A DNA stretch of 64,000 nt from the NCBI GenBank assembly GCA_945874665.1, contig CAMCHJ010000001.1:310001-374000 (forward strand), in the 5' to 3' direction. This document shows positions 5,890-32,234 of this stretch, in pieces. A program made the translations under genes and the position numbers. The stretch comes from Chitinophaga pinensis (GTDB taxonomy: Bacteria; Bacteroidota; Bacteroidia; UBA7662). How positions within the stretch are numbered: position 1 is the stretch's first letter; each line of letters begins with the position of its first letter. The notes beneath the pieces were generated by a model that was not told the DNA's origin, did no database searches, and was given only the letters and a program-made list of their open reading frames with translations.

Positions 5890-7059
5890 ATGAGACCTAA
5901 CCAAAACAACAAAAAAGTATCAAATAGGCCATATCAAATCTGCTCACAAACCATTATGGATACTTCTGATCCCAATATTGTGTTTAATGAAAAGGGTGAG
6001 AGTGATTATTATACGAATTATATTGAAACTATCTTGCCTAGTTGGCGTACTGATGAAAGAGGATATAATGAGTTAATGCTGGTAGCTGATAAAATTAAAA
6101 AAGAAGGAAATGGAAAAGATTTTGATTGTATTATAGGATTAAGTGGAGGATTAGATAGTTCTTATGTTGCATATGTAGCTAAAGAAGTCATGGGGTTAAA
6201 ACCACTTCTATTTCACGTAGATGCAGGATGGAATACAGATAAGGCTGTTGGTAATATAGAAAAATTATGTAATGGTTTAGGTTTGGATTTATTCACAGAA
6301 GTGATAAACTGGGAAGAGATGAAAGATTTACAGGTAGCTGTTCTTAAATCTCAGATAGCTGATCAAGATTTGCCACAAGATTATGCTTTCTTTTCTTCAA
6401 TGTATAAGTTTGCCAGAAAAAATAAAATTAAATATGTTTTAACTGGGGGTAATTTTTCAACTGAATGCTGTCGTGAACCTGAAGAATGGGGTGCATTTCC
6501 AGGAATTGATTCTATATTAGTGAATGATATTCATTCTCGCTTTGGTACGCGTCCTCTTAAAACGTTTCCAATAGTAGATATATTAACTTATAAAATTTAT
6601 TATAAGTATATTATTGGTATGCAGGTTTATAAACCTTTAAACTTTGTTCCCTACATTAAGAAAGATGTTGAACAGTTGCTCTTTGATCGTTATGGGTGGG
6701 AGCCTTTTCAACACAAACATCATGAATCACGTTTTACTCGATTTTATGAAGATTTTTGGCTCCCAAGAAAGTTTGGTTTCGAAAAAAGACGTGCTCATTT
6801 TTCTAGCTTAATTTTAACTGGACAAATGACTCGTGAGGAGGCATTGGAAAGAATTTCTAAACCAGAACTATCAGAAGAGTTTTTGCAAAAGGAGTTTGAC
6901 TACGTTGCTGATAAACTAGATTTAACCAGAGCGGACTTACAAGAAATTTTTGATGGTGAAAATAAAACTTTTCATGATTATAAAAATAAAATCAAATTGA
7001 TAGGTTTTGGGGCTCAAATAATGCAGAAACTAGGACTTGAAAAGCGTCTATTTAGATGA
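5890..7059 (+). CDS. wbpG: N-acetyl sugar amidotransferase, WbpG-like
   Basis: A 389-residue PP-loop ATP pyrophosphatase; SGGLDSS lies at residues 85-91. In the WbpG/PseA-like family the enzyme adenylates the acetamido carbonyl of a UDP-sugar and replaces it with ammonia, giving an acetamidino group. The partner genes for ammonia supply (HisH- and HisF-like) follow with start/stop overlaps, as in the Pseudomonas aeruginosa wbpG-hisH2-hisF2 group. Oddity: the N-terminal CxxC...CxxC zinc-type motif usual in the family is eroded. Only Cys18 of CSQTIMDTSDP remains, and GESDYY stands where GVCNYC-like sequence is expected. TGGNFSTECC downstream is intact. Confidence 0.87.
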   Translation: MRPNQNNKKVSNRPYQICSQTIMDTSDPNIVFNEKGESDYYTNYIETILPSWRTDERGYNELMLVADKIKKEGNGKDFDCIIGLSGGLDSSYVAYVAKEVMGLKPLLFHVDAGWNTDKAVGNIEKLCNGLGLDLFTEVINWEEMKDLQVAVLKSQIADQDLPQDYAFFSSMYKFARKNKIKYVLTGGNFSTECCREPEEWGAFPGIDSILVNDIHSRFGTRPLKTFPIVDILTYKIYYKYIIGMQVYKPLNFVPYIKKDVEQLLFDRYGWEPFQHKHHESRFTRFYEDFWLPRKFGFEKRRAHFSSLILTGQMTREEALERISKPELSEEFLQKEFDYVADKLDLTRADLQEIFDGENKTFHDYKNKIKLIGFGAQIMQKLGLEKRLFR

Positions 7060-7673
7060 TTACACTAATTGATTATGGGGTTGGTAATATATTTGCCTTT
7101 CAAAATGTCTATAAAAGACTAAATATTCCCACCAAGATTGCAAAAACCCAAGAAGATTTGGCTGATGCCAAAAAACTGATTTTACCAGGAGTTGGATCAT
7201 TTGATTATGCAATGGCTCAATTGAATGCTTCAGGTATGCGTGAAAAATTAGATGATCTAGTGCTTGAGAAAAAAGTTCCTGTTATAGGTATTTGCGTAGG
7301 AATGCAGATGATGGGTAATAGGAGCGATGAAGGGAAATTAGATGGCTTGAAATGGATTGATTCGGAGATCTTAAAATTTGATGAAAACTTAATTCAGCAA
7401 CGCACTAAACTTCCGCACATGGGTTGGAATGATGTGGCTCCAATCAACAACCATCCACTCTTTATTGGATTAGAAAAAGAAGCTATTTTTTATTTTTTGC
7501 ATAGTTTTTATTTTAGATGCAAAAACGAAACAGAAAGCATAGCTGTTTCTAATTATGGAATATCTTTTTCTTCTGCCGTTCATCGGGAAAATATTTATGG
7601 AATTCAATTTCATCCTGAGAAAAGTCATCAGTACGGTGAGAAATTATTGCATAACTTTGCAAAACTCAAATAA
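7056..7673 (+). CDS. hisH: HisH-like glutamine amidotransferase for sugar amidination
   Basis: A 205-residue class I glutaminase. The nucleophile elbow GICVGMQ places Cys80, and IQFHPEKS places His186 and Glu188, so the catalytic triad is complete. It releases ammonia from glutamine and passes it through the HisF-like barrel. The gene overlaps the wbpG stop by four bases (ATGA) and hisF by one base. The absence of any other histidine-biosynthesis gene, and this fixed trio, point to acetamidino-sugar synthesis rather than imidazole-glycerol-phosphate formation. Confidence 0.88.
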   Translation: MITLIDYGVGNIFAFQNVYKRLNIPTKIAKTQEDLADAKKLILPGVGSFDYAMAQLNASGMREKLDDLVLEKKVPVIGICVGMQMMGNRSDEGKLDGLKWIDSEILKFDENLIQQRTKLPHMGWNDVAPINNHPLFIGLEKEAIFYFLHSFYFRCKNETESIAVSNYGISFSSAVHRENIYGIQFHPEKSHQYGEKLLHNFAKLK

Positions 7674-8440
7674 TGTTACGTCCTAGAATAATACCAAGTT
7701 TATTGCTTCATGATCAGGGTTTAGTGAAAACAGTGAACTTTAAAACTCCAAAATATGTTGGAGATCCTATTAATGCTGTTCGAATTTTTAATGAAAAAGA
7801 GGTAGATGAATTAGCTTTTTTTGATATTGATGCAACAGTCATGAACAAAGAACCTGATTATGTTTTAATAGAAAAAATTGCTAATCAGTCGCGCATGCCG
7901 TTGTGTTATGGAGGTGGTGTTAAGACTGTCGAGCAAGCACAAAAAATATTTGGACTGGGGATTGAAAAAATTGCATTAAGTAGCGCTGTTGTCCACAATC
8001 CCAAATTAGTTACTAAGATCGCAGAACGAGTGGGTTCACAGAGTGTAATTGTTGTTTTGGATATCAAAAAGAAATTATTGGGGGGTTACGAAATTTATAC
8101 ACATAATGGCAAGAAATCTACAGGAATTAATCCAATTAAATTTGCAAAAGAATTGGAAGATTTAGGAACTGGTGAAATTATCATCAATTCAATTGATCAA
8201 GATGGAGTAATGAAGGGTTATGATTTAAATTTGATCGATAAAATAGCTGAAACAATTTCTATTCCCTTAACTGTTTTAGGTGGTGCGGGTTCACTAGCTG
8301 ATATAGAAAAAGTGATTGAAAAACACGGAGTAATTGGTGTTGCGGCTGGTAGTTTATTCGTTTTTAAAGGGCCATATAAAGCAGTATTAATTAATTATCC
8401 TTCTCAAAATGAGAAAAACATGATTTTTAAAATGAATTAA
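7673..8440 (+). CDS. hisF: HisF-like ammonia-channelling cyclase subunit
   Basis: A 255-residue TIM barrel. LRPRIIPSLLL at the N-terminus, DELAFFDIDAT near residue 50 and VVLDIKKK near residue 125 match HisF, and ITVLGGAGS-like phosphate-loop sequence (PLTVLGGAGS) lies near residue 200. It probably binds the HisH-like glutaminase and hands ammonia to the WbpG-like enzyme. The start ATG overlaps the hisH stop (TAATG). In true histidine HisF the N-terminal loop reads CLDV-type; this LLLHDQG version is the O-antigen HisF2 type. The fnlA gene begins three bases after its stop. Confidence 0.88.
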   Translation: MLRPRIIPSLLLHDQGLVKTVNFKTPKYVGDPINAVRIFNEKEVDELAFFDIDATVMNKEPDYVLIEKIANQSRMPLCYGGGVKTVEQAQKIFGLGIEKIALSSAVVHNPKLVTKIAERVGSQSVIVVLDIKKKLLGGYEIYTHNGKKSTGINPIKFAKELEDLGTGEIIINSIDQDGVMKGYDLNLIDKIAETISIPLTVLGGAGSLADIEKVIEKHGVIGVAAGSLFVFKGPYKAVLINYPSQNEKNMIFKMN

Positions 8441-8443: not shown

Positions 8444-9478
8444 ATGAAAATTCAAAATAAAACATTGCTGATTACTGGGGGTACAGGTTCATTTGGAAAT
8501 GCAGTCTTAAATCGATTTTTACATACAGATCATTTTAAAGAGATTCGAATTTTTTCACGAGATGAGAAAAAACAAGATGATATGCGTAATCAATTGAAGA
8601 ATCCCAAGTTAAAATTTTTCATTGGTGATGTTAGGGATTATGATAGTGTCGAACCAGCAACTCGTGGAGTTGATTATATTTTTCATGCCGCTGCATTAAA
8701 ACAAGTTCCATCATGTGAGTTTTTTCCAATGCAGGCAGTTAAAACAAATGTAGAAGGAACACAAAATGTAATACGAGCAGCAGGCTTTAATGGAGTTAAA
8801 AAGGTGATTTGTTTGAGTACAGATAAGGCTGCCTATCCAATAAATGCTATGGGTATTTCAAAAGCAATGATGGAAAAGGTAGCAATTGCTGAGTCTAGAA
8901 ATCTCGAAAATACGATTGTTTGTTTAACACGTTATGGGAATGTTATGGCCTCTAGAGGGTCTGTTATTCCACTTTTTATCAATCAAATTAAAAGTGGCCT
9001 TCCTTTAACAATTACCGATCCCAATATGACTCGTTTTTTAATGAGTTTAAATGATGCGGTAGATTTGGTTTTATTTGCTTTTAAGAATGGCAACCAAGGA
9101 GATTTGTTTGTTAACAAAGCACCTGCGGCAACTATTGGTGATTTAGCAGACGCCATAAAAGAATTAGCAAAAGTTAATCAGGAAATTAATATCATTGGAA
9201 CACGTCATGGTGAAAAATTGTATGAAACGTTGTGTACGAGAGAAGAGATGGTAAAAGCCGAAGATATGGGCGATTTTTATCGAGTTCCTGCGGATAATCG
9301 TGATTTGAATTATTCGATGTATTTTTCGGAAGGGGAGAAAAATTTGGCTGAAATTCAAGATTATCATTCACATAATACAGAAAGATTAAATGTGGATGGA
9401 GTGAAAAATCTTATTTCAAGATTGGCAATTGTAAGAAAAGAATTGTTTGCTGAAGAGGTTGATGAGTTTATGGTTTAA
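8444..9478 (+). CDS. fnlA: UDP-GlcNAc 4,6-dehydratase/5-epimerase (FnlA/WbjB/CapE)
   Basis: A 344-residue extended SDR. The NAD-binding loop ITGGTGSFG is at residues 10-18, and HAAALKQVPSCEFFP and CLSTDKAAYPINAMGISKAM are hallmark blocks. As in CapE, methionine (AMGISK) stands where SDR enzymes normally have the catalytic tyrosine, so this is a conserved family trait and not damage. It makes the first intermediate on the way from UDP-GlcNAc to UDP-N-acetyl-L-fucosamine. fnlB starts 36 bases downstream. The gene is AT-rich like the block before it. Confidence 0.92.
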   Translation: MKIQNKTLLITGGTGSFGNAVLNRFLHTDHFKEIRIFSRDEKKQDDMRNQLKNPKLKFFIGDVRDYDSVEPATRGVDYIFHAAALKQVPSCEFFPMQAVKTNVEGTQNVIRAAGFNGVKKVICLSTDKAAYPINAMGISKAMMEKVAIAESRNLENTIVCLTRYGNVMASRGSVIPLFINQIKSGLPLTITDPNMTRFLMSLNDAVDLVLFAFKNGNQGDLFVNKAPAATIGDLADAIKELAKVNQEINIIGTRHGEKLYETLCTREEMVKAEDMGDFYRVPADNRDLNYSMYFSEGEKNLAEIQDYHSHNTERLNVDGVKNLISRLAIVRKELFAEEVDEFMV

Positions 9479-9514
9479 TTATAATTTTTGAGATTCAATT
9501 AAATATAAATCATA

Positions 9515-10633
9515 ATGATTAGGGTTGGTATCACAGGGAAAAGCGGATTTATTGGGTATCATTTGTACCAAACCATAAATCTATTTAAAGAAGAGTTCGC
9601 TTTAGTAGAATTTGAAAAAAACTTTTTTAATGAGCAATTAAAATTAGATGCTTTCGTCTCTTCATGTGATGTAATTATTCACTTGGCGGCTTTAAATCGT
9701 CATAATGAGCCTGAGGTTATCTATGAAACTAATGTATCCTTAGTAAACAATTTAGTAAAGGCATTAGAAAGAACCGAAAGTAAAGCTCATTTAATCATCT
9801 CTTCGTCTACTCAGGAAGAGCGTGAAAACTTCTATGGTAAATCTAAAAAAGAGGGAAGAAAGCTCCTCTCCGATTGGGCAAAGCAGAATAATGGGAGATT
9901 TTCTGGTTTAATTATACCCAATGTATTTGGACCTTTTGGTCAACCCTATTATAACTCAGTAGTTGCCACTTTTTGCCACCAAATAGCCCGGAACGAAACA
10001 CCAAAAATTGAGATAGATGGTCAACTGAAACTCATTTGTGTGGGTAAAGTGGTAGACGCCATTTTGCAGGCCATTCGCACAAGCGATAATTCGCATGAAA
10101 TGGTGCTGCCCCACACTGCCGAGGCAAAAGTATCCGAAATATTGAGCTTACTTCAGCACTTCAAAACCGTGTATCAGGATAAAGGCGAATTCCCACCGTT
10201 AAATAATGAATTTGAGCATAAGCTTTTCAATACCTATCGTTGTTACATGGATATTCCTGCCTATTTTCCGCGAAAATTTGTACAGCATACTGACAACCGG
10301 GGTGCTTTTGTTGAAATTGCTCGACATGGGATTGCTGGACAAACATCCTTTTCAACCACCGTTCCCGGAATTACACGCGGAAACCACTTCCATACCCGCA
10401 AGATTGAGCGTTTTGCAGTCATTAAGGGCAAAGCACTCATCCAGTTGCGGCGTGTTGGTACTTCAGAGGTTCACAACTTTTACCTCGATGGCAATGAACC
10501 CTCCTATGTGGATATGCCCATTTGGTACACCCACAACATCAAAAACATCGGCGATGAAACGCTCTACACCAATTTCTGGATCAATGAGCCTTTTGACCCA
10601 GTCGATCCCGATACTTACTTCGAAACCGTTTGA
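9515..10633 (+). CDS. fnlB: WbjC/FnlB/CapF-type reductase with C-terminal cupin
   Basis: A 372-residue two-domain protein. The N-terminal SDR (GITGKSGFIGYHL at 5-17, then IHLAALNRHNEPE) reduces the 4-keto sugar. The C-terminal cupin (VPGITRGNHFHTRKIERFAVIKG, metal-binding His residues) does the 3-epimerisation, as in Staphylococcus CapF. It is the second enzyme of UDP-L-FucNAc synthesis. The gene is a compositional mosaic: bases 9601-9660 hold 14 G+C of 60 and bases 10081-10140 hold 29 of 60, with the change near 9,960. The protein reads through intact, so the join is a clean homologous one. Confidence 0.92.
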   Translation: MIRVGITGKSGFIGYHLYQTINLFKEEFALVEFEKNFFNEQLKLDAFVSSCDVIIHLAALNRHNEPEVIYETNVSLVNNLVKALERTESKAHLIISSSTQEERENFYGKSKKEGRKLLSDWAKQNNGRFSGLIIPNVFGPFGQPYYNSVVATFCHQIARNETPKIEIDGQLKLICVGKVVDAILQAIRTSDNSHEMVLPHTAEAKVSEILSLLQHFKTVYQDKGEFPPLNNEFEHKLFNTYRCYMDIPAYFPRKFVQHTDNRGAFVEIARHGIAGQTSFSTTVPGITRGNHFHTRKIERFAVIKGKALIQLRRVGTSEVHNFYLDGNEPSYVDMPIWYTHNIKNIGDETLYTNFWINEPFDPVDPDTYFETV

Positions 10634-10694
10634 CAGGTGACAAGTAACAAGTGACGGAAACTAAAGAACGGATGAAAAGTGAAAGTGACGAGAG
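10634..10694 (+). repeat. GTGAC-type repeat on the left of the four-helix-bundle gene
   Basis: Between the fnlB stop and the small gene lie imperfect units GTGACAAGTAACAAGTGACGG and AAAGTGACGAGAG. They run in the opposite sense to the CGTCACCC units on the right side of the gene. This looks like an inverted boundary of a small inserted module. Confidence 0.6.
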
Positions 10695-11048
10695 ATGAAA
10701 ACACACATGGATTTGGATGCTTGGAAGCTCTCTATGTCTTTGGTATCTGATATTTATATGCTTACTCGGGACTTTCCGAAAGAAGAAATTTATGGTCTCA
10801 CAAGCCAGATAAGAAGAGCAGCAGTATCCATCCCAACCAACATAGCTGAAGGCGCGGCAAGAGGAAGCAACAAGGATTTTGCTCATTTTTTGAACATCTC
10901 TTTGGGCTCTTTAGCCGAAGTAGAAACTCAAATCATTTTGAGTGACAACCTTGGTTTCGTTTCTTCTACACAAAAAGCTGCAACAATTGAAAAACTGACC
11001 AACATTCGCCGACTCATTATCGGACTTAAACGAGCTTTACAATCCTAA
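10695..11048 (+). CDS. four-helix-bundle protein (23S rRNA-intervening-sequence family)
   Basis: A 117-residue protein beginning MKTHMDLDAWKLSMSL, with DFPKEEIYGLTSQIRRAAVS and the highly typical IPTNIAEGAARGS near residues 48-60, then HFLNISLGSLAEVETQI. This is the S23/four-helix-bundle family first seen in 23S rRNA intervening sequences; its function is not established. Members also resemble the accessory Avd proteins of diversity-generating retroelements, but no reverse transcriptase is in this window. It is out of place between fnlB and fnlC and is flanked by GTGAC-type repeats, which suggests that the gene and its repeats moved together. ATG at codon 5 is an alternative start. Confidence 0.88.
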   Translation: MKTHMDLDAWKLSMSLVSDIYMLTRDFPKEEIYGLTSQIRRAAVSIPTNIAEGAARGSNKDFAHFLNISLGSLAEVETQIILSDNLGFVSSTQKAATIEKLTNIRRLIIGLKRALQS

Positions 11049-11053
11049 ATACT

Positions 11054-12310
11054 ATGGACGTCACCCGTCACCCGTCACCCGTTACCGAATCCAGCGATTT
11101 TAGTGCTGTAAAAAGGCTTAAAGTCATGACCGTGGTCGGTACCCGGCCCGAAATCATTCGCTTATCCCGCGTAATGGCCGCCCTCGATGCCTCACCCGCC
11201 ATTGAGCACATCACAGTACACACGGGCCAAAACTATGACTACGAATTAAATGAGGTATTCTACGAAGATTTGGGAATTCGCAAACCCGATTATTTCTTGA
11301 ATGCGGCTGGGGCGACAGCGACTGCCACGGTCGGACAAATCCTCATCAATATCGACCCAATCCTCGAAGAAGTACAACCAGATGCTTTTCTGGTGCTAGG
11401 CGATACCAATTCTTGTCTTTGTGCCATACCCGCTAAAAAGCGAAAAATCCCAATTTTCCACATGGAGGCAGGTAATCGCTGTTTTGACCAACGCGTACCA
11501 GAAGAGACGAATCGAAAAATTGTAGACCATATTTCCGACATCAACATGACCTATTCTGACATAGCCCGCGAATATTTGTTGCGCGAAGGTCTGTCACCCG
11601 ATCGCGTCATTAAAACCGGTTCACCCATGTTTGAGGTGTTGCACCATTACCTCCCGCAGATTGAAAAAAGCGATGTATTGGAAAGATTGCAGCTCGAAAA
11701 AGGCAAGTACTTTGTGGTTTCGGCACACCGCGAAGAAAACATCAGCAACGACCGCACTTTCTTTGGCTTGTTAGAGGCCTTGAACCGCATCGCTGAAACT
11801 TATGGATATCCAGTCATTGTGAGTACCCACCCCCGCACTCGCAAACGACTTGAGCAATTAAATTCGCGTCAATCCGCCCAATCAGTGGATTCCGCGTTTC
11901 ATCTGAACGACCTTATTCAATGGCAAAAGCCCCTTGGTTTTTCTGATTACAACGCCCTCCAACTAAACGCTTACGCCGTACTTTCCGACAGCGGCACCAT
12001 CAGTGAAGAATCATCCATTCTCAATTTCAGAGCGCTCAATATCCGAGAAGCTCACGAGCGCCCCGAAGCCATGGAAGAAGCATCGGTCATGATGGTTGGT
12101 CTCGACCCTGAGCGCATTATGCAAGGACTCCAGCATTTGCAACACCAAGATATTAGCCCCCGCAGTGTGTCAGCCGTTTCCCGTCACCCGTTTCTCACTT
12201 CCCTCCGCCCTGTAGCAGATTTCAGCATGCCCAATGTTTCGGAGAAGGTGGTGCGCATCATTTTAAGTTACACCGATTACATCAATCGCGTGGTTTGGAA
12301 GAAGCACTGA
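11054..12310 (+). CDS. fnlC: UDP-N-acetylglucosamine 2-epimerase type (FnlC/WbjD/CapG)
   Basis: A 418-residue non-hydrolysing 2-epimerase finishing UDP-L-FucNAc. VMTVVGTRPEIIRLSRVM, HTGQNYDYELNEVFY, HMEAGNRCFDQRVPEE and FVVSAHREENI are family blocks. The C-terminus MPNVSEKVVRIILSYTDY is typical of FnlC. The first 24 or so codons are partly made of the CGTCACCC repeat (residues TRHPSPVT), and family proteins usually begin right at the LKVMTVVGTRPE strand, so the extension is probably foreign; ATG 11126 is an alternative start. A second repeat-like stretch encodes an extra SRHPFLTS loop near residue 378. Confidence 0.92.
   Translation: MDVTRHPSPVTESSDFSAVKRLKVMTVVGTRPEIIRLSRVMAALDASPAIEHITVHTGQNYDYELNEVFYEDLGIRKPDYFLNAAGATATATVGQILINIDPILEEVQPDAFLVLGDTNSCLCAIPAKKRKIPIFHMEAGNRCFDQRVPEETNRKIVDHISDINMTYSDIAREYLLREGLSPDRVIKTGSPMFEVLHHYLPQIEKSDVLERLQLEKGKYFVVSAHREENISNDRTFFGLLEALNRIAETYGYPVIVSTHPRTRKRLEQLNSRQSAQSVDSAFHLNDLIQWQKPLGFSDYNALQLNAYAVLSDSGTISEESSILNFRALNIREAHERPEAMEEASVMMVGLDPERIMQGLQHLQHQDISPRSVSAVSRHPFLTSLRPVADFSMPNVSEKVVRIILSYTDYINRVVWKKH
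11059..11086 (+). repeat. CGTCACCC tandem units on the right of the four-helix-bundle gene
   Basis: Three head-to-tail CGTCACC units and a fourth ending CGTTACC overlap the first codons of fnlC. The reverse complement reads GGTAACGGGTGACGGG and so on, matching the left-hand repeat in inverted sense. Confidence 0.7.
12178..12203 (+). repeat. repeat-like stretch inside fnlC
   Basis: The sequence around CCCGTCACCCGTTTCTCAC aligns with the reverse complement of the left boundary repeat (TTTCCGTCACTTGTTACTTG). It encodes residues that interrupt an otherwise conserved C-terminal region of the epimerase. The frame is kept. Confidence 0.45.
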
Positions 12311-13530
12311 TGCGCCCCCAAAAAATCATTTTTTTAAGTCTAGTTCAAATAAATACCCTCGACGAAAGAGGTATTTATCAAGATTTGTTGCGCCAATTCG
12401 TTCAAAACGGTCACGAGGTAACTGTGGTTTGTCCAGTTGAACGCAGATCTGGTTTTCTGACGCGCTTATTGAAGGAAGGTGGAACAACGATACTCCATGT
12501 ACGTACACTGAATATTCAAAAGTCGCCCATATGGGAAAAAGGATTGGCAACCATTTCGCTGAATATGCTACTTAAGAGAGCTATAAAGAAGCATTTGGCA
12601 TCGAGTTCGTTTGACCTGATTTTGTATGCCACGCCACCCATCACCATTACCGGATTCATTCGGTGGCTGAAGCAACGAGATGGAGCCAAATCTTATTTGT
12701 TATTGAAGGATATATTTCCGCAAAACGCGGTGGACATGGGGATGCTTCGTAATAATTCTTATTTACACAAGTACTTCAAACGTAACGAACAAATACTGTA
12801 TCGCCTTTCTGATCGCATTGGCTGTATGTCACCTGCGAATGTATCCTATCTAAGTGTAAAGCATCCAGAATTGCTGTCTAAAGTTGAAGTAAATCCCAAT
12901 GCTATTGATTTAACCAGGGTGAAGGCTGGCAGCGTAAATCGGGCGGAGATCCTTAAAACGTGGGGAATTCCAAATGATTCTGTGGTGTATTTGTATGGAG
13001 GCAACTTGGGCAAACCGCAGGGGACAATCTTTCTTTTAGAACTTCTGGAAGCAAAAACCATACATCCAGCTGCATTTTTACTGATCGTGGGAGATGGCAC
13101 CGATTATCCTGTGCTAAAAGCGTGGTTTGAAAATTGGCAACCTAAAAACGCAAAGCTCATTCAACGCCTTCCAAAAACAGACTTCGATGAACTGGCTGCC
13201 TGCTGTGATGTTGGACTCATTTTATTGAGACGAGAATTTACCATTCCAAATTTTCCTTCCCGGCTACTTACATACATGGAAAACAAGATGCCAGTTCTTG
13301 CAATAACGGATACGTCAAGTGATGTTGGCACCATGGCGAAATCAGCCGGTTTTGGAGATTGGTGTTTGTATGGTGACCAAAAAGCAGCTTTGCAACTCAT
13401 TTCTTTTTTTTGCAGTACGCCAGAAACCAGGAAATCAATGGGTGAAGCAGGTTTTGATTTTATGCAAGAGCACTATGATGTAAATATCAGTTATCAAAAA
13501 ATCAATGAATTTGTACAAGGAAGTCTATAA
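12310..13530 (+). CDS. WbuB-like GT4 glycosyltransferase
   Basis: About 406 residues from the ATG at 12310, which overlaps the fnlC stop (TGATG); a TTG at 12295 is less likely. The N-terminal [20 protein letters not shown] and [10 protein letters not shown] match the WbuB group of transferases, which usually sits directly after fnlABC and is thought to transfer L-FucNAc. [18 protein letters not shown] near residue 140 and [19 protein letters not shown] near residue 320 are family blocks. Composition is intermediate between the AT-rich block and the GC-rich fnlC. It overlaps the next gene by 26 bases. Confidence 0.86.
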
Positions 13531-14125
13531 ACCTTTTTTTGATCGCTCGATGGCCGCTTTAGCTTGCGTGATTGCGTTCATTCCTGTTGTTTTGATTGCA
13601 ATTTTATTGCGTTTGGTACACGGCAAAGGAGGCGTTTTTTTTACGCAGCTCAGACCGGGTAAGGATGAAGCGATATTCAAACTTGTTAAGTTCAAAACAA
13701 TGAACGACAAACGAGATGTGGCTGGAAATCTTTTGCCAGATGCTGAACGCTTAACAGGAATTGGCACGTTCATTCGTAAAACTTCATTGGACGAACTCCC
13801 TCAACTGTGGAACGTGCTCAAAGGGGATATGAGCTTGGTGGGACCACGGCCATTGCTGGTTCAATACCTACCGTTGTACAATTCCGAGCAAATGAGACGG
13901 CATGTAGTAAAACCAGGCATTACAGGTTGGGCTCAAGTGAATGGAAGAAATGCTATCCGTTGGGAGGAAAAATTTAAGCTAGATGTTTGGTATGTTGATA
14001 ATGTTAACTTTGCATTGGATTTGAAAATCCTATATATGACCTTTCTTAAAGTACTAGGTCAAAGGAACATTTCACAAGATGGACATTCAACTATTGAGGC
14101 GTTTAAAGGAAATATAGATAAATGA
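13505..14125 (+). CDS. PglC-like initiating phosphoglycosyl transferase
   Basis: A 206-residue monotopic phosphoglycosyl transferase. One N-terminal re-entrant hydrophobic segment (about residues 14-36) is followed by the catalytic pair in [17 protein letters not shown] and the [13 protein letters not shown] block, then [14 protein letters not shown]. It moves a sugar phosphate from a UDP-sugar to undecaprenyl phosphate on the cytoplasmic side. Small size and the PglD-like gene directly downstream (ATGA overlap) favour UDP-diacetylbacillosamine or a related sugar as donor. It is one of three initiating transferases in the window (others at 33.5 and 41.7 kb). Confidence 0.9.
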
Positions 14126-14757
14126 AGGACATTGTAATATTAGGGACTGGAGGATTAGGAAAAGAAGTTCTTGAACTTATTCATCAGATTAACAAGAAGG
14201 GATTAACTTGGAATGTCTTGGGTTTTTTCGATGACACAAAAGAAGTTGGTACAGAAGTAAACGGAATCAAAGTTGTTGGCGGGTTACAGGAGTTAAGGGA
14301 TTCGGCATGCCAAAATGTAGTAATTGCCATCGGAAATCCAGAGGTACGGGCAAAGTTGATAAGGGAATTATCAATACACAAAACGCTGCCGACCCTGATA
14401 CATCCGACTGTTATGATTCCTGATGCTTATATTTCAATTGGCATAGGGTCTATAATTGGCGCGCATGTCTTTTTGTCTGTCAATGTTTCAATTGGTTCAG
14501 GTGTATTGTTGAATGTTGGTTGTTCGATTGGGCATGATGTGGAAATTGGTGATTACTGTACGGTGAATCCGGGAGCTCGGGTCTCTGGGTCAGTTAAAAT
14601 AGGTGAATTGTCCTTTATTGGTGTAGGGGCGATCTTAAATAACAACATACTGATTGCCAGTGAAGTTAAGGTAGGGGCCGGCGCCGTGGTGTTAAAGTCT
14701 GTAGAAAAAAAATCAACCGTGTTTGGAAATCCAGCACGAATCATGTTGAACAATTAA
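14122..14757 (+). CDS. PglD/NeuD-like sugar N- or O-acetyltransferase
   Basis: A 211-residue protein with an N-terminal Rossmann part ([18 protein letters not shown]) that binds the UDP-sugar and a C-terminal left-handed beta-helix of hexapeptide repeats. The likely catalytic histidine is in [19 protein letters not shown] near residue 137. PglD acetylates UDP-4-amino-4,6-dideoxy-GlcNAc to UDP-diacetylbacillosamine. Because an acyl carrier protein follows 12 bases later, an acyl donor other than acetyl-CoA is conceivable; that is inference. Confidence 0.87.
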
Positions 14758-14769
14758 ATACGAAAATCA

Positions 14770-15009
14770 ATGGAAAACAATCAAAAATTAATTAACTCGT
14801 TCCAAGAAGCATTAGGGCTCGATACCTCTTCAATTGTAGATTCCTTAACTTACCAAAGTGTTCCCGAGTGGGATTCTATTTCTCATATGATTTTAATTAG
14901 TCAATTAGAGGAAGACTTCAACGTTTCTTTGGAAACTGATGATGTAATTGATATGAGTTCTTTTGCCAAGGCAAGAGAAATTTTGGCTAAACACGGAGTA
15001 AGTTTTTAA
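14770..15009 (+). CDS. acyl carrier protein
   Basis: A 79-residue carrier protein. Ser36 in VPEWDSISHM is the expected phosphopantetheine attachment site, and the surrounding helices (LISQLEEDFNVSLETDDVIDM) match specialised ACPs found beside acyl-activating enzymes rather than the fatty-acid-synthase ACP, which usually reads DSLDTVE. It starts the acyl cassette that runs to 19,422; the next gene begins one base after its stop. It should carry an acyl thioester handed over by the adenylating enzyme downstream. Confidence 0.88.
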   Translation: MENNQKLINSFQEALGLDTSSIVDSLTYQSVPEWDSISHMILISQLEEDFNVSLETDDVIDMSSFAKAREILAKHGVSF

Positions 15010-15010
15010 A

Positions 15011-15751
15011 ATGCTGTTACTTGATAAGCTTTGCCTTGTTACAGGAGCCTCCAAAGGAATCGGCAAGGCCATAAGTACTTTGTTTGCAAATCAAGGAGCG
15101 CGCATTATCGCTACAGGGCGTGACCTTGATGCATTAAAAGCATTGATTGATGAACTGCCAACGCACTCAGGGCCACATTTGGCTTATAAAATGGACGTGA
15201 CCAAAGAAGAGGATATTTTAAGCGTTTTCAAAGCATTACATCAGGATAAGTTATATATCCATTGCCTGGTGAATAATGCTGGTATTATGGAAGATGCAAC
15301 CCTCCAAATGGTGAAAACAGAATTGATACACAAAATCTATAACACCAATGTGTTGGGGACCATTTTTCCTTCACAGCATGCTATTAAGGCTTTTTTACGG
15401 AACCGCGGCGGTAGCGTTATTAACTTAAGCTCCATCATTGGTACCAATGGAAATCATGGACAAAGCATTTATGGTTCATCGAAGTCTGCAATTATTGGTT
15501 TTACGAAATCTTTGAGTAAAGAATTAGCACCTCTCAACATACGCGTAAATGCAATAGCACCTGGATTCATAGATACGGATATGACTAGAGGCATGGATGA
15601 AAAGTTCTACGAAAAGAACTTAAAATCTATAGGCATGCGGCGTTTAGGTGAGCCTGATGATGTGGCAAAAGTAGCCTTATTTTTAGCTTCAGATTTATCT
15701 GCCTACGTAACAGGTCAAGTTATTGGGGTGGATGGTGGTATGATTATTTGA
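15011..15751 (+). CDS. FabG-like short-chain dehydrogenase/reductase
   Basis: A 246-residue classical SDR: TGASKGIGKAISTLF at the N-terminus for NADP(H), NNAG near residue 90, catalytic Ser-Tyr-Lys in INLSSIIG and IYGSSKSA, and VNAIAPGFIDTDMTRGM and VTGQVIGVDGGMII at the C-terminus. The closest recognisable type is 3-oxoacyl-ACP reductase. Beside an ACP and an acyl ligase it probably reduces a ketoacyl-ACP to a 3-hydroxyacyl-ACP or the reverse. It cannot be told from sequence whether a fatty acid or a sugar intermediate is the true substrate. Confidence 0.87.
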   Translation: MLLLDKLCLVTGASKGIGKAISTLFANQGARIIATGRDLDALKALIDELPTHSGPHLAYKMDVTKEEDILSVFKALHQDKLYIHCLVNNAGIMEDATLQMVKTELIHKIYNTNVLGTIFPSQHAIKAFLRNRGGSVINLSSIIGTNGNHGQSIYGSSKSAIIGFTKSLSKELAPLNIRVNAIAPGFIDTDMTRGMDEKFYEKNLKSIGMRRLGEPDDVAKVALFLASDLSAYVTGQVIGVDGGMII

Positions 15752-15757
15752 TGTTTT

Positions 15758-17122
15758 ATGCGGTTAATTGATCGAATACAACTCAATGAAAAATTAAGGC
15801 TCATAGATGAAGTCACGGGTAAAAGCTATGCTTACAAAGATTTGCCTAATGTATCTTGGCCAATCAGAGAAAGATCACTCCTATTTTGCTATTTGAACAA
15901 TTCAATAGAGTCAGTTTCTTTTCTGATCAAAGCCTTTGAAAGTCAGCATGTATTGGTTCTCTTATCAGCAACATTAACAGAAAATTTTAAAGCTGTACTT
16001 GAAAGTACTTACACCCCAAACTATATTTATGATGCATCGCGATCCACAGTGAGTGGGTACAAACTCGACGGAGCATCGCTACACGTAAAAATAATTGCAT
16101 CCAATCTCGTGCTTCATGAGAACTTGCAGGTTTTATTGAGCACCTCAGGAACTACTGGTTCTCCAAAATTCGTGAAGCTGTCAGAAAACAATTTACTGGC
16201 GAATGCTGAATCGATAGCGGCGTATTTGCCAATCTTAGCTGCTGACAAAGTGCCGCTGAATTTGCCAATTCATTATTCATATGGACTGTCTATTCTAACA
16301 AGTAATGCACTTAAGGGCGCAACGCTACTTGCAGGAGTGCAAGATGTGATGTCAAAAGGTTTTTGGGACAATTTCCAGAAGTATCAATACTCCACCGTTG
16401 CTGGTGTGCCATATGTGTATGAAATGCTGGATCGAATCGGTTTTACAAAGATGCAGTTGCCGAGTCTCCGATATTTTACGCAGGCTGGAGGTAAATTGCG
16501 GGATGACCTCGTAAGCAAGTATGCTGACTTTGCAAAAGAACATGGTAAGTTGTTTTATGTGATGTATGGTCAAACGGAAGCTACAGCACGCATGTCCTAT
16601 TTACATCCCGATCATTTATTAAGTCATATTGGGTCTATAGGTAAGCCTATTCCTGGAGGAAGATTTGAGTTGAACGAGGAGACTTCTGAGTTACAATACG
16701 AAGGCCCTAATGTATATGGAGGATATGCTGAATGTGTTAAGGATTTGAGCACATTTGAAAGTCCTGCTTTGTTATGTACGGGTGATTTGGCTAAGGTAGA
16801 TGAACAGGGGTTTTATTACATTACTGGAAGGAGTAAGAGATTTGTCAAAATATTTGGTAATAGGATAAATTTAGATGAGTTAGAGGCCGCATTGTCCAAT
16901 CGATTCGGTGCTTTTTATCCATGCTTAGGATGGCAAGACAAGGTGGTTTTGGTATATTCTACCAACACAAATGAAGACCATTCACAAATTGTTACCTGGC
17001 TGAGCGTTGAGTATAAATTGCATCCGACATCATTTAAGCTCAGAACCCTTGATGCTATTCCCTTAACAGCAAATGGCAAACCCGATTACAAATTTTTATT
17101 GAGCGATTATGAAGGTAGATGA
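15758..17122 (+). CDS. AMP-dependent acyl-activating enzyme (acyl-CoA/ACP ligase type)
   Basis: A 454-residue member of the ANL adenylating family, slightly short of the usual 500 or more. The P-loop is LLSTSGTTGSPKFVKLS near residue 130; MYGQTEATARMSYLHP is the A5 motif; CTGDLAKVDEQGFYYITGRSKRFVKIFG holds the A7-A8 hinge; and the C-terminal lysine segment reads TANGKPDYK. It should make acyl-AMP and load the neighbouring ACP or CoA. It overlaps the LuxE-like gene by 14 bases, which argues for coupled translation. The acyl chain is unknown. Confidence 0.87.
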   Translation: MRLIDRIQLNEKLRLIDEVTGKSYAYKDLPNVSWPIRERSLLFCYLNNSIESVSFLIKAFESQHVLVLLSATLTENFKAVLESTYTPNYIYDASRSTVSGYKLDGASLHVKIIASNLVLHENLQVLLSTSGTTGSPKFVKLSENNLLANAESIAAYLPILAADKVPLNLPIHYSYGLSILTSNALKGATLLAGVQDVMSKGFWDNFQKYQYSTVAGVPYVYEMLDRIGFTKMQLPSLRYFTQAGGKLRDDLVSKYADFAKEHGKLFYVMYGQTEATARMSYLHPDHLLSHIGSIGKPIPGGRFELNEETSELQYEGPNVYGGYAECVKDLSTFESPALLCTGDLAKVDEQGFYYITGRSKRFVKIFGNRINLDELEAALSNRFGAFYPCLGWQDKVVLVYSTNTNEDHSQIVTWLSVEYKLHPTSFKLRTLDAIPLTANGKPDYKFLLSDYEGR

Positions 17123-18176
17123 CCTATTGAATGTTCCTCAGTTTAGTCTTGATCAAGCTGAGAAAGACAAAGCAATGCTGGTATTAATGAAGGGGCTTCA
17201 CGAACACCATGTTGCGAATTCAGTCGCTTACAAAGAGATTTGTACACGTGTCTTTGGAACTAAAGTAGATTTCAAAACCCTTGAGGACTTACCATTTATA
17301 CCGGTGAGCGCATTTAAAAACCATCAATTGATGAGTATTAATGAGGGCGACATCTTCAAAGTGCTTACTTCCTCAGGTACAACAGGTCAAAGCGTTAGTC
17401 GGATTTACTTAGATAAAGATACCGCGCGTTTACAAAGCGTTGCGCTTTCAAAAATCATCTCTCACGTGGTAGGCCCTCAACGCCTTCCCATGCTTGTTAT
17501 TGATTCAAAAGCAGTTTTTGAGAATAAATTGAGTTTTTCTGCAAGAGGTGCCGGTATTCTTGGTTTGGCACCATTTGGAAAAGACCACACCTATGTATTA
17601 AATGAAAATTTTGAACCTGACGAAGCGGTTTTGAAGGGGTTTCTTGAGAAATATGATGGGCAGCGTATTTTCATATTCGGCTTTACTTTTATGGTTTGGC
17701 AATTTTTACAGAAAGCCAATTTTGATAAAAAGTACGATCTAAGTAATGCCATTTTGATGCATAGTGGTGGTTGGAAGAAATTGATAGACAGGGCTGTTGA
17801 TAACGCCACATTCCGTTTAAAGCTTAAAGAGAAGTTTAATTTGGAGCATATCTACAATTATTATGGCATGGTAGAACAAGTTGGCTCTGTTTTTATGGAA
17901 AATCAAAACGGCTATTTGCATGCACCTAATTTTGCTGATGTCATCATTCGCAACCCAGTTGATTTTAGCGTTCAGCCTATAGGTCAGCCGGGCCTCATCC
18001 AAGTGATTAGTGCATTGCCTATAAGTTATCCCGGGCATTCGTTATTAACGGAAGATATTGGTGTTTTGGAGGGCGTTGATGATTCACAAGGGGGCTGGAA
18101 AGGCAAGTATTTCAGAATTTTAGGTCGAGCAAAGAAGGCTGAATTAAGAGGTTGCAGCGATACTTTTAATAAATGA
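17109..18176 (+). CDS. LuxE-like acyl-protein synthetase
   Basis: A 355-residue protein of the LuxE/PaaK-related group, with the adenylation motif KVLTSSGTTGQSVSRIYLD near residue 90 and LMHSGGWKKL near residue 220. Cys349 in LRGCSDTF lies seven residues from the C-terminus, the place where LuxE carries its acyl-accepting cysteine. In bioluminescent bacteria LuxE activates a fatty acid as acyl-AMP and passes it through this cysteine to LuxC. No luxA or luxB is present here, so light emission is not implied. LuxC follows four bases later. Confidence 0.87.
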   Translation: MKVDDLLNVPQFSLDQAEKDKAMLVLMKGLHEHHVANSVAYKEICTRVFGTKVDFKTLEDLPFIPVSAFKNHQLMSINEGDIFKVLTSSGTTGQSVSRIYLDKDTARLQSVALSKIISHVVGPQRLPMLVIDSKAVFENKLSFSARGAGILGLAPFGKDHTYVLNENFEPDEAVLKGFLEKYDGQRIFIFGFTFMVWQFLQKANFDKKYDLSNAILMHSGGWKKLIDRAVDNATFRLKLKEKFNLEHIYNYYGMVEQVGSVFMENQNGYLHAPNFADVIIRNPVDFSVQPIGQPGLIQVISALPISYPGHSLLTEDIGVLEGVDDSQGGWKGKYFRILGRAKKAELRGCSDTFNK

Positions 18177-18180
18177 TCAA

Positions 18181-19422
18181 ATGAACGCATTGAAGTTAAA
18201 TCAATATACGCCGCATTCAGTATCGATTCTATGTACGGAACTTAGCTGTTTGGTGGCCAAGAATTATGATTTAAGGCCTTTCGATTCTAGAACAATTGAT
18301 TTTCTTGATGGGTTGTCTAAGTTAATTCTTGGAGATAAGGCGATCAATAGACGTCCGGAAATGGCTGCTTTAGGTTTTTGGCTTAGAAAAGCGCAGTTGA
18401 AGAAAATGATGGTGGAGCAAGAGCAATTGCTTAACAATCCTCAATTCAAGGTGGCTCCAATTGGTAAAGTATTCCATATTTGTCCAGCAAACGTAGATAC
18501 TATGTTTATGTACAGCATGGTCGTAGCGCTCCTCATGGGAAATAGAAATATACTCAGGATATCCAAACGTATGGATGCCCCACATGTGCTAAGTTTATTT
18601 GATAAGTTGAATTTGCTCTTAGAAGCTGAGGAATTCACCTTATTCAAGGACTACATAAACATCATTAGTTACGATCACAATGCGGATATTAGTAATTATC
18701 TCTCTACTGGGGCAAATGCTAGATTGATTTGGGGTGGAGACTCTACTATTAAAACTTTTCAATCTTTTGAAAAGGCACCTAGAACGAAAGACATTGTTTT
18801 TGCAGACAGGATTTCAATGATGATCTTAGATTCTGAAAAAATATTGTCTTGTGAGGGTAAGGCCTGGGACGAACTCTTACGTAATTTTTACAACGACGCC
18901 TATACTTTTGATCAAATGGGATGTTCGTCTCCACAAACAATATACTTTTTAGGTTTGCATCAATACTGTGAACAAGCTCGAATAAAGTTGAGTAAAGGCC
19001 TTCAAGAATTTCTTTTAGCGGAATATGAAAATGACGTAAGTTCACTTGCATCCTTAAAGCTAAATAGAATGGTCGATGATGCTCTTGAGGGGAAAATATT
19101 GAATCAATCAGGCAACAATTTATTTAAGTTATTACAATTAGTCGAAATCAGCGACTCAAATTCATTACATGGTTGTGGTGGTGGCTATTTTTATTTTAAA
19201 GATTGTAATAAAATAAAAGATATGGTTGCTTTAAATGTCCCCAAAGTTCAGACAGTAAGTTATTTTGGATTATCCCATGATGATAAAAATGAACTTATGA
19301 AATTAGCCTATGGAGAAGGAATTGATCGCATTGTGAAAGTAGGAAACGCCCTTAACTTTCATTATATATGGGATGGCTATAATCTTTTTCAAGAATTAAG
19401 CCGTAAGGTGTATATTGAATGA
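18181..19422 (+). CDS. LuxC-like acyl-CoA/acyl-protein reductase
   Basis: A 413-residue member of the LuxC acyl-CoA reductase family. VFHICPANVDTMFMYSMVVALLMGN near residues 98-121 is the cofactor and membrane-like block, and Cys248 in FDQMGCSSPQTI matches the active-site cysteine that forms the acyl thioester before NADPH reduces it to an aldehyde. With the LuxE-like partner it forms a fatty-acid-reductase pair. It ends the acyl cassette; 132 bases without a gene follow before the exosortase. What the aldehyde is used for is not known. Confidence 0.88.
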   Translation: MNALKLNQYTPHSVSILCTELSCLVAKNYDLRPFDSRTIDFLDGLSKLILGDKAINRRPEMAALGFWLRKAQLKKMMVEQEQLLNNPQFKVAPIGKVFHICPANVDTMFMYSMVVALLMGNRNILRISKRMDAPHVLSLFDKLNLLLEAEEFTLFKDYINIISYDHNADISNYLSTGANARLIWGGDSTIKTFQSFEKAPRTKDIVFADRISMMILDSEKILSCEGKAWDELLRNFYNDAYTFDQMGCSSPQTIYFLGLHQYCEQARIKLSKGLQEFLLAEYENDVSSLASLKLNRMVDDALEGKILNQSGNNLFKLLQLVEISDSNSLHGCGGGYFYFKDCNKIKDMVALNVPKVQTVSYFGLSHDDKNELMKLAYGEGIDRIVKVGNALNFHYIWDGYNLFQELSRKVYIE

Positions 19423-19554
19423 TAAATTATGTAATGCCTAATTTTTAGTAATTATGTTGAAATATGAATATGTTGCTGAAAAGAGCTCAAGGTGTGACAA
19501 TTGAGTCAAACGCCAACGGCCTGTAATTAATAATATTCATACAAATATCAACAC

Positions 19555-20166
19555 TTGCCCGGGTTTAGTACTAAGTTTAAGCGTTTTCAATTGTTAAAAT
19601 TAGCACAAAATATTTTCTTTAAATTTCGCCCCATTTTCAACTTTCTGTTGATTTTCATCCTGACTTTTCTCGTCTTTTCTGTGGTATATGACCTGTATTT
19701 ACATCGCTTTGAAGATAAAACCGATGGCATGTCGGCTTACGTTGGTAGGCAAGCCGCCAGCCTACTAATTGTGATGGGTTTTGATGCCTTTGCAACAGAC
19801 ATGCATGCCGATAAAAGCACGCATGTAGGCATTGACGGATTTGCGCGGGTAAAGGTGATAGAAGGGTGCAACGGGCTTTCAGTAATGATACTTTTCGTGG
19901 CTTTTTTGCTCGGTTTTCCAGGGAAACTCAAGAGCATGGCGTGGTTTCTTCCCGCCGGTTTGCTGGTTATTCACTTTTTCAATATCCTCCGCGTGGCCAT
20001 GCTTGGCTGGGCGGTTTACCGTTTTGGTGAAACTGGATACTACATCTACAAAGAATTGTTTACAGCCTCCATTTACCTACTAGTGCTCACCCTCTGGTTT
20101 CTTTGGGTTCAGAAATATGGCAGCTTTAATAAAGTTAATGTATGCAATGGAAACGAAGGGCCATAG
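19555..20166 (+). CDS. xrtF: exosortase family protein, XrtF type
   Basis: A 203-residue membrane protein with about five hydrophobic segments (first at residues 27-46). VIEGCNGLSVMILFVAFLL contains the candidate nucleophile Cys105, and HFFNILRVAML contains Arg146. Exosortases cut and re-join C-terminal sorting signals of exported proteins and often sit in exopolysaccharide loci. The third catalytic residue, a histidine before the last membrane helix, is not seen: the segment YYIYKELFTASIY has tyrosine or lysine there, and no histidine occurs after Arg146. The start is TTG at 19555 or 19591; no ATG lies before the first helix. It overlaps its partner gene. Confidence 0.82.
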   Translation: MPGFSTKFKRFQLLKLAQNIFFKFRPIFNFLLIFILTFLVFSVVYDLYLHRFEDKTDGMSAYVGRQAASLLIVMGFDAFATDMHADKSTHVGIDGFARVKVIEGCNGLSVMILFVAFLLGFPGKLKSMAWFLPAGLLVIHFFNILRVAMLGWAVYRFGETGYYIYKELFTASIYLLVLTLWFLWVQKYGSFNKVNVCNGNEGP

Positions 20167-20558
20167 GCCTACTGGCTGTGCTGATATTGCTAGTTTCATT
20201 TCAATTTCGCGCTATCAATTTTACAGGTTTGTTGCTCGGTAATGGGGCTGATGATGCACGGACTTGGTTTATAATTCTAAACAAGGGGGTGCGTTATTTG
20301 ATTAATAATCTAGCTGCGCTTGCGCTATTGTGGGGGCTTTTCCAACGCCGTGATTACTTGCAACTGGCAGTAGTTGTTCTTTTATTTGGTCTTTTTGTGC
20401 TTTTACCACTCTACTTTGTTGGCTATTTCTACTTCCGTGAGAGCCTTGGCGTTACATTGAGTTACCTTCACCGCTTGGTCATGAATCCGACTTTGATGAT
20501 GCTCTTGATACCGCTTTTTTATTATCAGCGCAACTTAGAAAACACCAAAAGCGTTTAG
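20142..20558 (+). CDS. exosortase F system-associated membrane protein
   Basis: A 138-residue protein with about four membrane segments, overlapping the xrtF gene by 25 bases. Its length, charged FRESL loop, and tail RLVMNPTLMMLLIPLFYYQRN fit the small protein that regularly follows xrtF in Bacteroidota (the flavo_near_exo family). Function is unknown; a role in folding or substrate delivery for the exosortase is inferred from strict pairing. The DegT gene begins 111 bases downstream. Confidence 0.8.
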   Translation: MQWKRRAIGLLAVLILLVSFQFRAINFTGLLLGNGADDARTWFIILNKGVRYLINNLAALALLWGLFQRRDYLQLAVVVLLFGLFVLLPLYFVGYFYFRESLGVTLSYLHRLVMNPTLMMLLIPLFYYQRNLENTKSV

Positions 20559-20669
20559 CTTTGTCTAGTTTTGTGATGTGTAATTAGCTCCTAAATTCCG
20601 TGTGGAGCAGCAACCGTAATTTTTCTTAAACCACTCAAGGGCCTTCTAGCCTCCTTTTAAAAAGTATTT

Positions 20670-21806
20670 ATGTCAAGCAATCCAAAGGTCTGGCTTTCTT
20701 CTCCCCACATGGGATCGGCCGAATTTGAATTTGTAAAAGAAGCGTTTGATACCAATTGGATTGCGCCACTTGGCCCACATGTTAACGGGTTTGAAGCAGA
20801 TCTGGTGGCCTATACAGGAACAAAGGAGGCGGCGGCATTGAGTAGTGGCACAGCTGGCCTACACTTAGGTCTTATTGAACTAGGCGTCGTAGCTGGCGAT
20901 GAAGTGATTTGTCAAAGTTTTACCTTTTCTGCTTCTGCGAATCCAATTGCTTATCAAGGTGCGATTCCCATATTTGTGGACTCTGAAGCGGATACTTGGA
21001 ACATGAGTCCGTATTGGTTGGAAAAGGCCATTGAAGCCCGTATGGCCATTGGTAAAAAGCCCAAAGCCATTATTCCAGTGCATTTATACGGCATGCCTGC
21101 CAAAATGGACGAGATCATGGCCATAGCGCGTAAGTATGACATTCCGGTGTTGGAGGATGCCGCCGAGGCCTTAGGTTCTACTTACCAAGGCAAGGCATGC
21201 GGTACCTTTGGAGCTATTGGAATATTGAGCTTTAATGGCAATAAAATAATAACAACTTCTGGGGGTGGCGCGCTTATTTCAGACGATGAAAATTATGTAA
21301 AACAAGCGCGATTTTTAGCTACACAGGCAAGGGATAATGCCCCACATTACGAGCATTCGCATATAGGATATAATTACCGCATGAGTAATATATGTGCAGG
21401 AATTGGGAGAGGTCAAATGATGGTACTGAAAGAGCGTATTGAGCAAAGACGCGCTAATTTTGATTTTTATGTAAAGGCGCTGAGCCATTTACCTGGGATA
21501 ATGTTCCTTCAAGAACCAACGGGAAGTTTTAGTAATCGTTGGCTAACGACTATTTTAGTAGTCCCATCAAAGTCAGCGGGGATTACCCGTGAAAAAATTC
21601 GTTTAGCCTTAGAAGCCGCAAATATAGAATCGCGCCCGCTTTGGAAGCCCATGCACCTCCAACCTGTTTTTGCGCAAGCTCCATTTTATGGGGACGGCAC
21701 TTCTGAACGTTTGTTTGAGCAAGGCCTTTGCCTGCCCTCGGGGTCCAATTTAACCATGACTGACCTTGAGCGTGTGGTAGAACTTATTCGCACGCTATTT
21801 CACTGA
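20670..21806 (+). CDS. DegT/DnrJ/EryC1 sugar aminotransferase, PglE-like
   Basis: A 378-residue PLP enzyme beginning with KVWLSSPHMGSAEFEFVKEA and DTNWIAPLGPHV, both typical of PglE/LegC-type 4-aminotransferases. Asp163 in LEDAAEALGS and Lys192 in SFNGNKIITTSGGG bind PLP. It would convert UDP-4-keto-6-deoxy-GlcNAc to the 4-amino sugar that a PglD-like enzyme then acetylates. The matching dehydratase gene lies at 39.5 kb and PglC/PglD-like genes at 13.5-14.8 kb. Composition is between the AT-rich and GC-rich parts of the window. Confidence 0.9.
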   Translation: MSSNPKVWLSSPHMGSAEFEFVKEAFDTNWIAPLGPHVNGFEADLVAYTGTKEAAALSSGTAGLHLGLIELGVVAGDEVICQSFTFSASANPIAYQGAIPIFVDSEADTWNMSPYWLEKAIEARMAIGKKPKAIIPVHLYGMPAKMDEIMAIARKYDIPVLEDAAEALGSTYQGKACGTFGAIGILSFNGNKIITTSGGGALISDDENYVKQARFLATQARDNAPHYEHSHIGYNYRMSNICAGIGRGQMMVLKERIEQRRANFDFYVKALSHLPGIMFLQEPTGSFSNRWLTTILVVPSKSAGITREKIRLALEAANIESRPLWKPMHLQPVFAQAPFYGDGTSERLFEQGLCLPSGSNLTMTDLERVVELIRTLFH

Positions 21807-32232: not shown

Positions 32233-32234
32233 GC

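Follow-up and report, generated by a model that had tools for sequence, protein, structure and literature searches.

The closest described relatives of the genes considered here lie in glycosylation islands. In the polar-flagellum glycosylation island of Aeromonas Group II, orf1-orf2-orf3-luxE-luxC directly follow pseH (PMC7874193). The flagellin glycosylation islands of many Enterobacteriaceae strains contain Acp, LuxE, LuxC, a CaiC ligase and FabG, and a liposugar was proposed (PMC4875605). For both groups the genes were taken to make fatty acids for a sugar that carries a lipid. We analysed 64,000 nucleotides of Chitinophaga pinensis (assembly GCA_945874665.1, contig CAMCHJ010000001.1, positions 310,001 to 374,000; hereafter the window), where a cassette of five genes at 14770-19422 encodes an acyl carrier protein (ACP), a short-chain reductase (SDR), an acyl ligase that forms adenosine monophosphate (AMP), a LuxE-family and a LuxC-family protein. 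The Aeromonas block has the same composition (ACP, 3-oxoacyl-ACP reductase, AMP synthetase, LuxE and LuxC by an amino-sugar acyltransferase; PMC7874193) and differs in its setting. It lies among pse genes and is associated with pseudaminic acid on flagellin, whereas the sugar genes of the window are of Pgl/Fnl type and predict Qui2NAc4N in a surface polysaccharide; two further cassettes described below (loci L020 and L066) do lie among pse genes. The Enterobacteriaceae islands, compared by gene content only, share gene families with the cassette. The gene block has thus already been published, and what differs is our functional reading, a donor of small hydroxyacyl-ACP instead of fatty-acid synthesis. 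We propose, with a probability of about 55%, that the cassette is a portable module which makes an ACP-bound small hydroxyacyl group, by a route from malate, and that this group N-acylates a 4-amino-4,6-dideoxy sugar nucleotide. That the cassette has a small-acyl role of some kind we consider quite probable.

Two other systems resemble the window in part. In Vibrio cholerae O1 a tetronate pathway has been proposed for rfbK-O (Morona et al. 1995, cited in PMC4772473), and the 4-amino group of perosamine there bears tetronate, which is 2,4-dihydroxybutanoate (PMC4772473). The likeness to the window is by family only (ACP, ligase, LuxE/LuxC-type reductase and acyltransferase, with the acid joined by an amide bond to a 4-amino-4,6-dideoxy sugar); RfbN contains a LuxE domain, and the sugar is perosamine where the window predicts Qui2NAc4N. 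RfbK, RfbL, RfbM and RfbO presumably act in the tetronate pathway, and the reductase parts are fused in one protein. In Flavobacterium psychrophilum wfpC-wfpG, a PglD homologue is predicted to acylate UDP-Qui2NAc4N, with a dedicated ACP as the acyl donor (PMC6519341). The window shares with it the dedicated ACP, the PglD homologue and L-FucNAc in the same repeat. The wfp genes differ in having ketosynthases, a 3,5-dihydroxyhexanoyl product and no LuxE/LuxC; by family matches, no ketosynthase stands beside the ACP among the genes at 12295-21806 of the window.

The five genes lie on the forward (+) strand, separated by 1, 6 and 4 bp or, at one junction, overlapping by 14 bp, and all their Pfam matches exceed the curated gathering cut-offs. 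The ACP (79 aa, 14770-15009; PF00550, PP-binding, 25 bits) carries Ser36 in the motif W-D-S-x-x-H-M and is nearest to the solved Geobacter metallireducens ACP 2lml (profile A3). It is followed by a FabG-like SDR (246 aa, 15011-15751; PF13561, adh_short_C2, 207.6 bits), for which the top FabG models score under their own cut-offs. The closest solved relatives of the AMP-forming acyl ligase (454 aa, 15758-17122; PF00501, AMP-binding, 96.1 bits) are oxalate-CoA ligase and malonyl-CoA synthetase. A LuxE-family acyl-protein synthetase (355 aa, 17109-18176; PF04443, 164.7 bits, cut-off 24.9) and a LuxC-family acyl-thioester reductase (413 aa, 18181-19422; PF05893, 101.5 bits, cut-off 21) complete the set. 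Aligned with PDB 7xc6, the LuxC-LuxE complex of Photobacterium, LuxE Cys349 matches the conserved cysteine of chain E and LuxC Cys248 that of chain A. Across 12 homologous loci neither cysteine varies, and the same is true of ACP Ser36, SDR Ser141/Tyr154/Lys158 and ligase Lys441. In AlphaFold models, whose input alignments excluded the rows from plasmid loci, LuxC (mean pLDDT 79.5) has 7xc6 chain A as top fold match (TMq 0.61), and LuxE (mean pLDDT 80.9) is like PaaK-type AMP ligases, including 2-hydroxyisobutyryl-CoA ligase. Promoter and terminator scans gave no greater signal than in shuffled sequence.

The initial annotation had described five tightly packed genes with the acyl-accepting cysteines kept at 349 and 248, no luciferase gene, and a PglD-like acyltransferase in front. 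Open reading frames (ORFs) and Pfam matches confirm the first statement, and the 7xc6 alignments with the invariance across loci the second. The luciferase family PF00296 gave zero matches genome-wide, where control genomes gave matches, and the acyltransferase gene, with a TIGR03570 score above cut-off, ends 12 bp before the ACP gene.

The bacterial lux fatty-acid reductase (LuxC-LuxE, PDB 7xc6) has the same fold and cysteine relay. The lux systems differ from the window in that its genome contains no luciferase and no LuxD adjoins the cassette. The bioluminescence equivalogs score 82.6 against a cut-off of 550 for LuxE and 38.5 against 750 for LuxC, and these scores, with the genome-wide absence of luciferase, rule out lux bioluminescence. 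They also bear on the published proposal for Aeromonas and Enterobacteriaceae, by which the cassette would yield a fatty acyl group or aldehyde and put a lipid on the glycan. The family names LuxE, LuxC, FabG and ACP speak for such a route, as does its published interpretation (PMC7874193, PMC4875605). Against it stand the distance of LuxE and LuxC from the equivalogs, the use of oxalate and malonate by the ligase relatives, and the finding of no ketosynthase among the five genes or those adjoining them between 12295 and 20558. With the Aeromonas glycan masses considered below, we judge it improbable.

To follow the cassette beyond the window we assembled 14 loci from genomes and plasmid records, representing four phyla (Bacteroidota, Deinococcota, Alphaproteobacteria and Actinomycetota); one more contig, the fifteenth, did not extend far enough for a decision. 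Ten loci keep the order ACP-SDR-ligase-LuxE-LuxC, one of them with an extra ORF before LuxC. In the remaining loci LuxC is displaced, the ACP is inverted or missing, or the genes are scrambled. Between loci the five genes diverge in step (correlation of distances, r 0.67-0.89, permutation p <= 0.0014), and LuxC identity is 27-50%. Since unrelated phyla share this order and show this joint divergence, the cassette is not a chance assembly, and its sporadic occurrence with joint divergence indicates that the set was transmitted as a unit, probably by horizontal transfer. One copy (L051:10956-12316) has LuxC split across two frames in an otherwise complete cassette; copies at other loci are intact.

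Profile searches with LuxE (E <= 1e-30), which covered Bacteroidota only, matched 9 of 395 genomes of the class, two of them (G484, G402) being divergent variants. In one family, 399 genomes gave 2 matches, one of which is already counted, and in another class 1 of 98 genomes matched. None of the 20 other genomes from the taxonomic order to which the window belongs gave a match. Scanning the genome collection with a single LuxC sequence returned one relative only. Across 392 Bacteroidota the strong, cassette type of LuxE is separable from weak, lone relatives. As a control, none of 32 loci with a weak relative contained another cassette gene (ACP, SDR, ligase or LuxC) within the 3-14 kb examined at each. 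Weak Flavobacteriia relatives were accordingly rejected as members of the module; Riemerella AS87_03730 is probably of this lone kind. No DNA match to the cassette was found in E. coli genomes and no cassette match in viral contigs, and phages gave one 22% match, in an unannotated record.

An acyltransferase adjoins the cassette in 12 of the 14 loci, and its fold varies. It is PglD-type in the window, L051, L064, L067/68 and L077, another hexapeptide enzyme in L072 and L073, a GNAT in L052 (assigned from a BLAST link to a GNAT), L053, L065 and also L020, with PseH, and an AAC(3)-type enzyme in L075. Sugar-nucleotide or glycosyltransferase genes accompany 11 of the 14 copies. At the loci whose genes reveal the sugar, they point to a 4-amino-4,6-dideoxy sugar: PglE/PglF in the window, WecE in L072, and PseB/PseC/PseI in a Chitinophaga metagenome-assembled genome (L020, also PseH) and in Nonomuraea (L066). 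Gene content, gene order, intact catalytic residues, co-evolution and adjacency to acyltransferase and 4-amino-sugar genes are thus visible in the compared sequences. A machine that makes acyl-ACP would be expected to show this pattern, in which the donor module stays constant and the acyltransferase is exchanged. Since the fold of the partner varies, PglC and PglD are ruled out as obligate partners, and the constant company of a PglC/PglD pair, for which the initial annotation had proposed to look, did not hold (PglD-type in five loci); the glycan context that it expected did, at the 11 loci mentioned.

Some loci carry additional genes. A conserved pair near the cassette in L075 (5615-7572) and L072 (17124-19084) encodes an AAC(3)-type acetyltransferase and a protein of 353-360 aa with zero Pfam or NCBIfam matches. 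On Rhizobium plasmids (L067/L068), a scrambled cassette occurs with two transketolase halves, a PglD-type acyltransferase, a GMC oxidoreductase and FabZ, perhaps for a longer acyl group.

These neighbourhoods also bear on whether the aldehyde could be the end product, with an ACP-bound acyl group leaving in aldehyde form and being attached to a sugar or lipid carrier. LuxC comes last in the set, and LuxE/LuxC of lux systems do make aldehydes. It is N-acyltransferases, and no aldehyde-using gene, that recur next to the cassette, and a LuxE/LuxC aldehyde needs neither an ACP nor an AMP ligase. We give this possibility very little credence. We take the aldehyde more probably to be an intermediate; of the special group for a surface sugar or lipid carrier suggested earlier, the acyl group for a surface sugar is most likely right, and the aldehyde-derived product and the lipid carrier find no support.

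Returning to a small hydroxyacyl donor, we infer each reaction of the cassette, the reaction order, the substrate and the product, as a route from malate to 2,4-dihydroxybutanoate that uses each enzyme once. LuxE would adenylate one carboxyl of a small acid, likeliest C4 of malate, and take the acyl group onto Cys349. The acyl group would pass to LuxC Cys248 and be reduced to the semialdehyde, which the SDR would turn into the primary alcohol, giving 2,4-dihydroxybutanoate (3-deoxytetronate). The AMP ligase would then activate the remaining carboxyl and load the ACP. From there, the PglD-like enzyme would transfer the acyl group to the 4-amino group of UDP-Qui2NAc4N, provided by the PglF (39527) and PglE (20670) homologues, and the PglC-like enzyme would begin the repeat unit with the acylated sugar. 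Alternatively, the two carboxyl activations could be reversed, malyl being loaded onto the ACP first. PseH acylates the 4-amino group of its precursor, the same kind of position as PglD. A designed malate-semialdehyde route to 2,4-dihydroxybutanoate works in E. coli (PMC5481828), so the chemistry is feasible. The same article states that no natural pathway to this acid exists (PMC5481828). It is tempting to propose, with slightly less than even confidence, that the cassette is such a pathway, a widespread natural route from malate to 2,4-dihydroxybutanoate, moved between phyla as a unit and plugged into the host's 4-amino sugar (Qui2NAc4N, pseudaminic acid or Fuc4N). If so, that statement would be contradicted, the 376- and 102-Da components of Aeromonas flagella would be identified, the N-acyl decoration of surface amino sugars could be predicted from sequence, and an enzymatic route to a wanted chemical building block would be at hand. 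For the unnamed 'fatty-acid-like' block of flagellar and polysaccharide islands, a single small acyl group and the sugar that accepts it can now be predicted and tested.

Glycan masses from Aeromonas guide the choice of acid. The published A. piscicola AH-3 glycan is made up of a 376.14-Da derivative of pseudaminic acid, an unknown 102-Da moiety, two hexoses and three N-acetylhexosamines (HexNAc) with phosphate and methyl; Aeromonas AH-1, whose group lacks the cassette, carries 403 Da instead. We computed 376.148 for pseudaminic acid with acetyl and dihydroxybutanoyl, 102.032 for dihydroxybutanoyl, and 1491.49 for the whole glycan, against 1491.5 reported. Recalculation from the printed m/z gives 1492.4, one unit higher, which makes the total mass only a rough check; the excess may reflect isotope choice. 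By analogy, this match is the one pointer to 2,4-dihydroxybutanoate in particular, and we put dihydroxybutanoyl as the acyl product at even odds. The product, which the initial annotation could not name, is narrowed to that extent. The 376-Da unit, hexoses, HexNAc, phosphate, methyl and the 102-Da unit account for the whole glycan and leave no fatty-acyl mass, so that a fatty-acyl liposugar is unlikely.

Another small hydroxyacyl group could arise by the same logic, such as 4-hydroxybutanoyl from succinate or 3-hydroxybutanoyl by action of the SDR on acetoacetyl-ACP, and the product may vary by locus. Marine polysaccharides contain (S)-3-hydroxybutyryl-bacillosamine and 4-hydroxybutyramido-sugars, the SDR is FabG-like, and the distances between loci (see LuxC above) permit changed specificity. 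The computed masses for mono-hydroxybutanoyl, 360.153 and 86.037, disagree with the 376.14 and 102 reported, and 3-hydroxybutanoyl would leave LuxE and LuxC without a role. We regard such a product as unlikely, yet the most serious of the alternatives.

Several points weigh against the malate route and its dihydroxybutanoyl product. The 376 mass sets only C6H8O4 for both acyl groups combined, and seven acyl pairs from the list we tested fit 376.148; lactyl with lactyl, glycolyl with hydroxybutanoyl, and O-methylglyceroyl with acetyl fit equally. The 102-Da value is nominal, and its group sits at the end of the Aeromonas chain, on no obvious amine. Carrying the argument from Aeromonas to the window presupposes a single product of the module, and the low LuxC identity leaves room for other acids. 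The likeness to the Aeromonas and V. cholerae proteins is one of published names, not sequences. In V. cholerae O1, RfbM is an iron-containing alcohol dehydrogenase where the window has an SDR, and FabG-like SDRs usually reduce beta-keto groups. Our literature search found no biochemical work on any one of these five proteins, whichever the organism. Finally, L066 and L071 have no adjoining acyltransferase, L071 also lacks the ACP, and the surroundings of L053, L065 and L075 are not clear glycan loci.

The last three loci would agree with a role other than in polysaccharides, for instance with a small metabolite or with a neighbouring exosortase. Between LuxC and the PglE-like gene of the window, at 19555-20558, lie an XrtF exosortase (TIGR04128, 140 bits, cut-off 90), which begins 133 bp after LuxC, and its partner (TIGR04127); in F. 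johnsoniae, surface colonisation is lost when xrtF is mutated. None of the other cassette copies inspected has a recognised XrtF next to it, and most copies accompany sugar genes, as counted above, so we see little chance of this explanation. At L053 (genome G283), the intact cassette stands with two GNATs, two further AMP ligases and a TonB receptor and without glycan genes, and it may have been co-opted for a small molecule.

In the window, the proposed acyl transfer is embedded in sugar genes, all on the + strand. A PglC-like phosphoglycosyltransferase (13505-14125; PF02397, 202.3 bits), which would use the acylated sugar to initiate the repeat unit, overlaps the PglD/NeuD-type acyltransferase (211 aa, 14122-14757; TIGR03570, 186.6 bits, cut-off 160.8) proposed to act from the ACP onto the 4-amino sugar. 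PDB relatives of the latter are VioB, PglD and perosamine N-acetyltransferase. A PglE/LegC-type aminotransferase (20670-21806; TIGR04181, 391.8 bits, cut-off 420) is proposed to convert the UDP-4-keto sugar to UDP-Qui2NAc4N; its best solved relatives are 1o61 and 4ztc, structures of C. jejuni PglE. A PglF/WbpM-type UDP-GlcNAc 4,6-dehydratase (659 aa) lies at 39527-41506 (PF02719, 416 bits, genome C1:350439-351302). Since equivalents of PglF, PglE, PglD and PglC are all inside the window, formation of UDP-Qui2NAc4N, its N-acylation and transfer to a lipid carrier are predicted. Upstream, WbuX, HisH-like and WbuZ/AglZ-like genes for an acetamidino group (5890-8440; TIGR03573, 267.8, and NF038364, 386.1 bits, both above cut-off) and, by family matches, FnlA, FnlB and FnlC-like genes of the L-FucNAc pathway (8444-12310) would together form an L-FucNAm pathway, by analogy with WbuX of E. 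coli O145. A GT4-type glycosyltransferase follows (12295-13530; PF00534/PF13439), WbuB-like by position, a role read from gene order alone.

With a Wzx-like flippase and glycosyltransferases also encoded, the window is, judged by its genes, a surface-polysaccharide locus. It had been called an O-antigen locus, which is narrower than the genes allow, as Wzi-/Wza-type export genes further along make a capsule or exopolysaccharide possible instead. Between FnlB and FnlC, a 23S rRNA intervening-sequence-type four-helix protein is encoded at 10695-11048 (PF05635, 130 bits). The G+C content changes from 28% at the start of the window to 38-46% across 10-21 kb and about 55% past 22 kb, and with this mosaic across 1-22000 the sugar genes were probably acquired. 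A second PF02397 sugar transferase (33519) lies with the Wzi- and Wza-like export genes at 30526-36649, possibly a second polysaccharide system.

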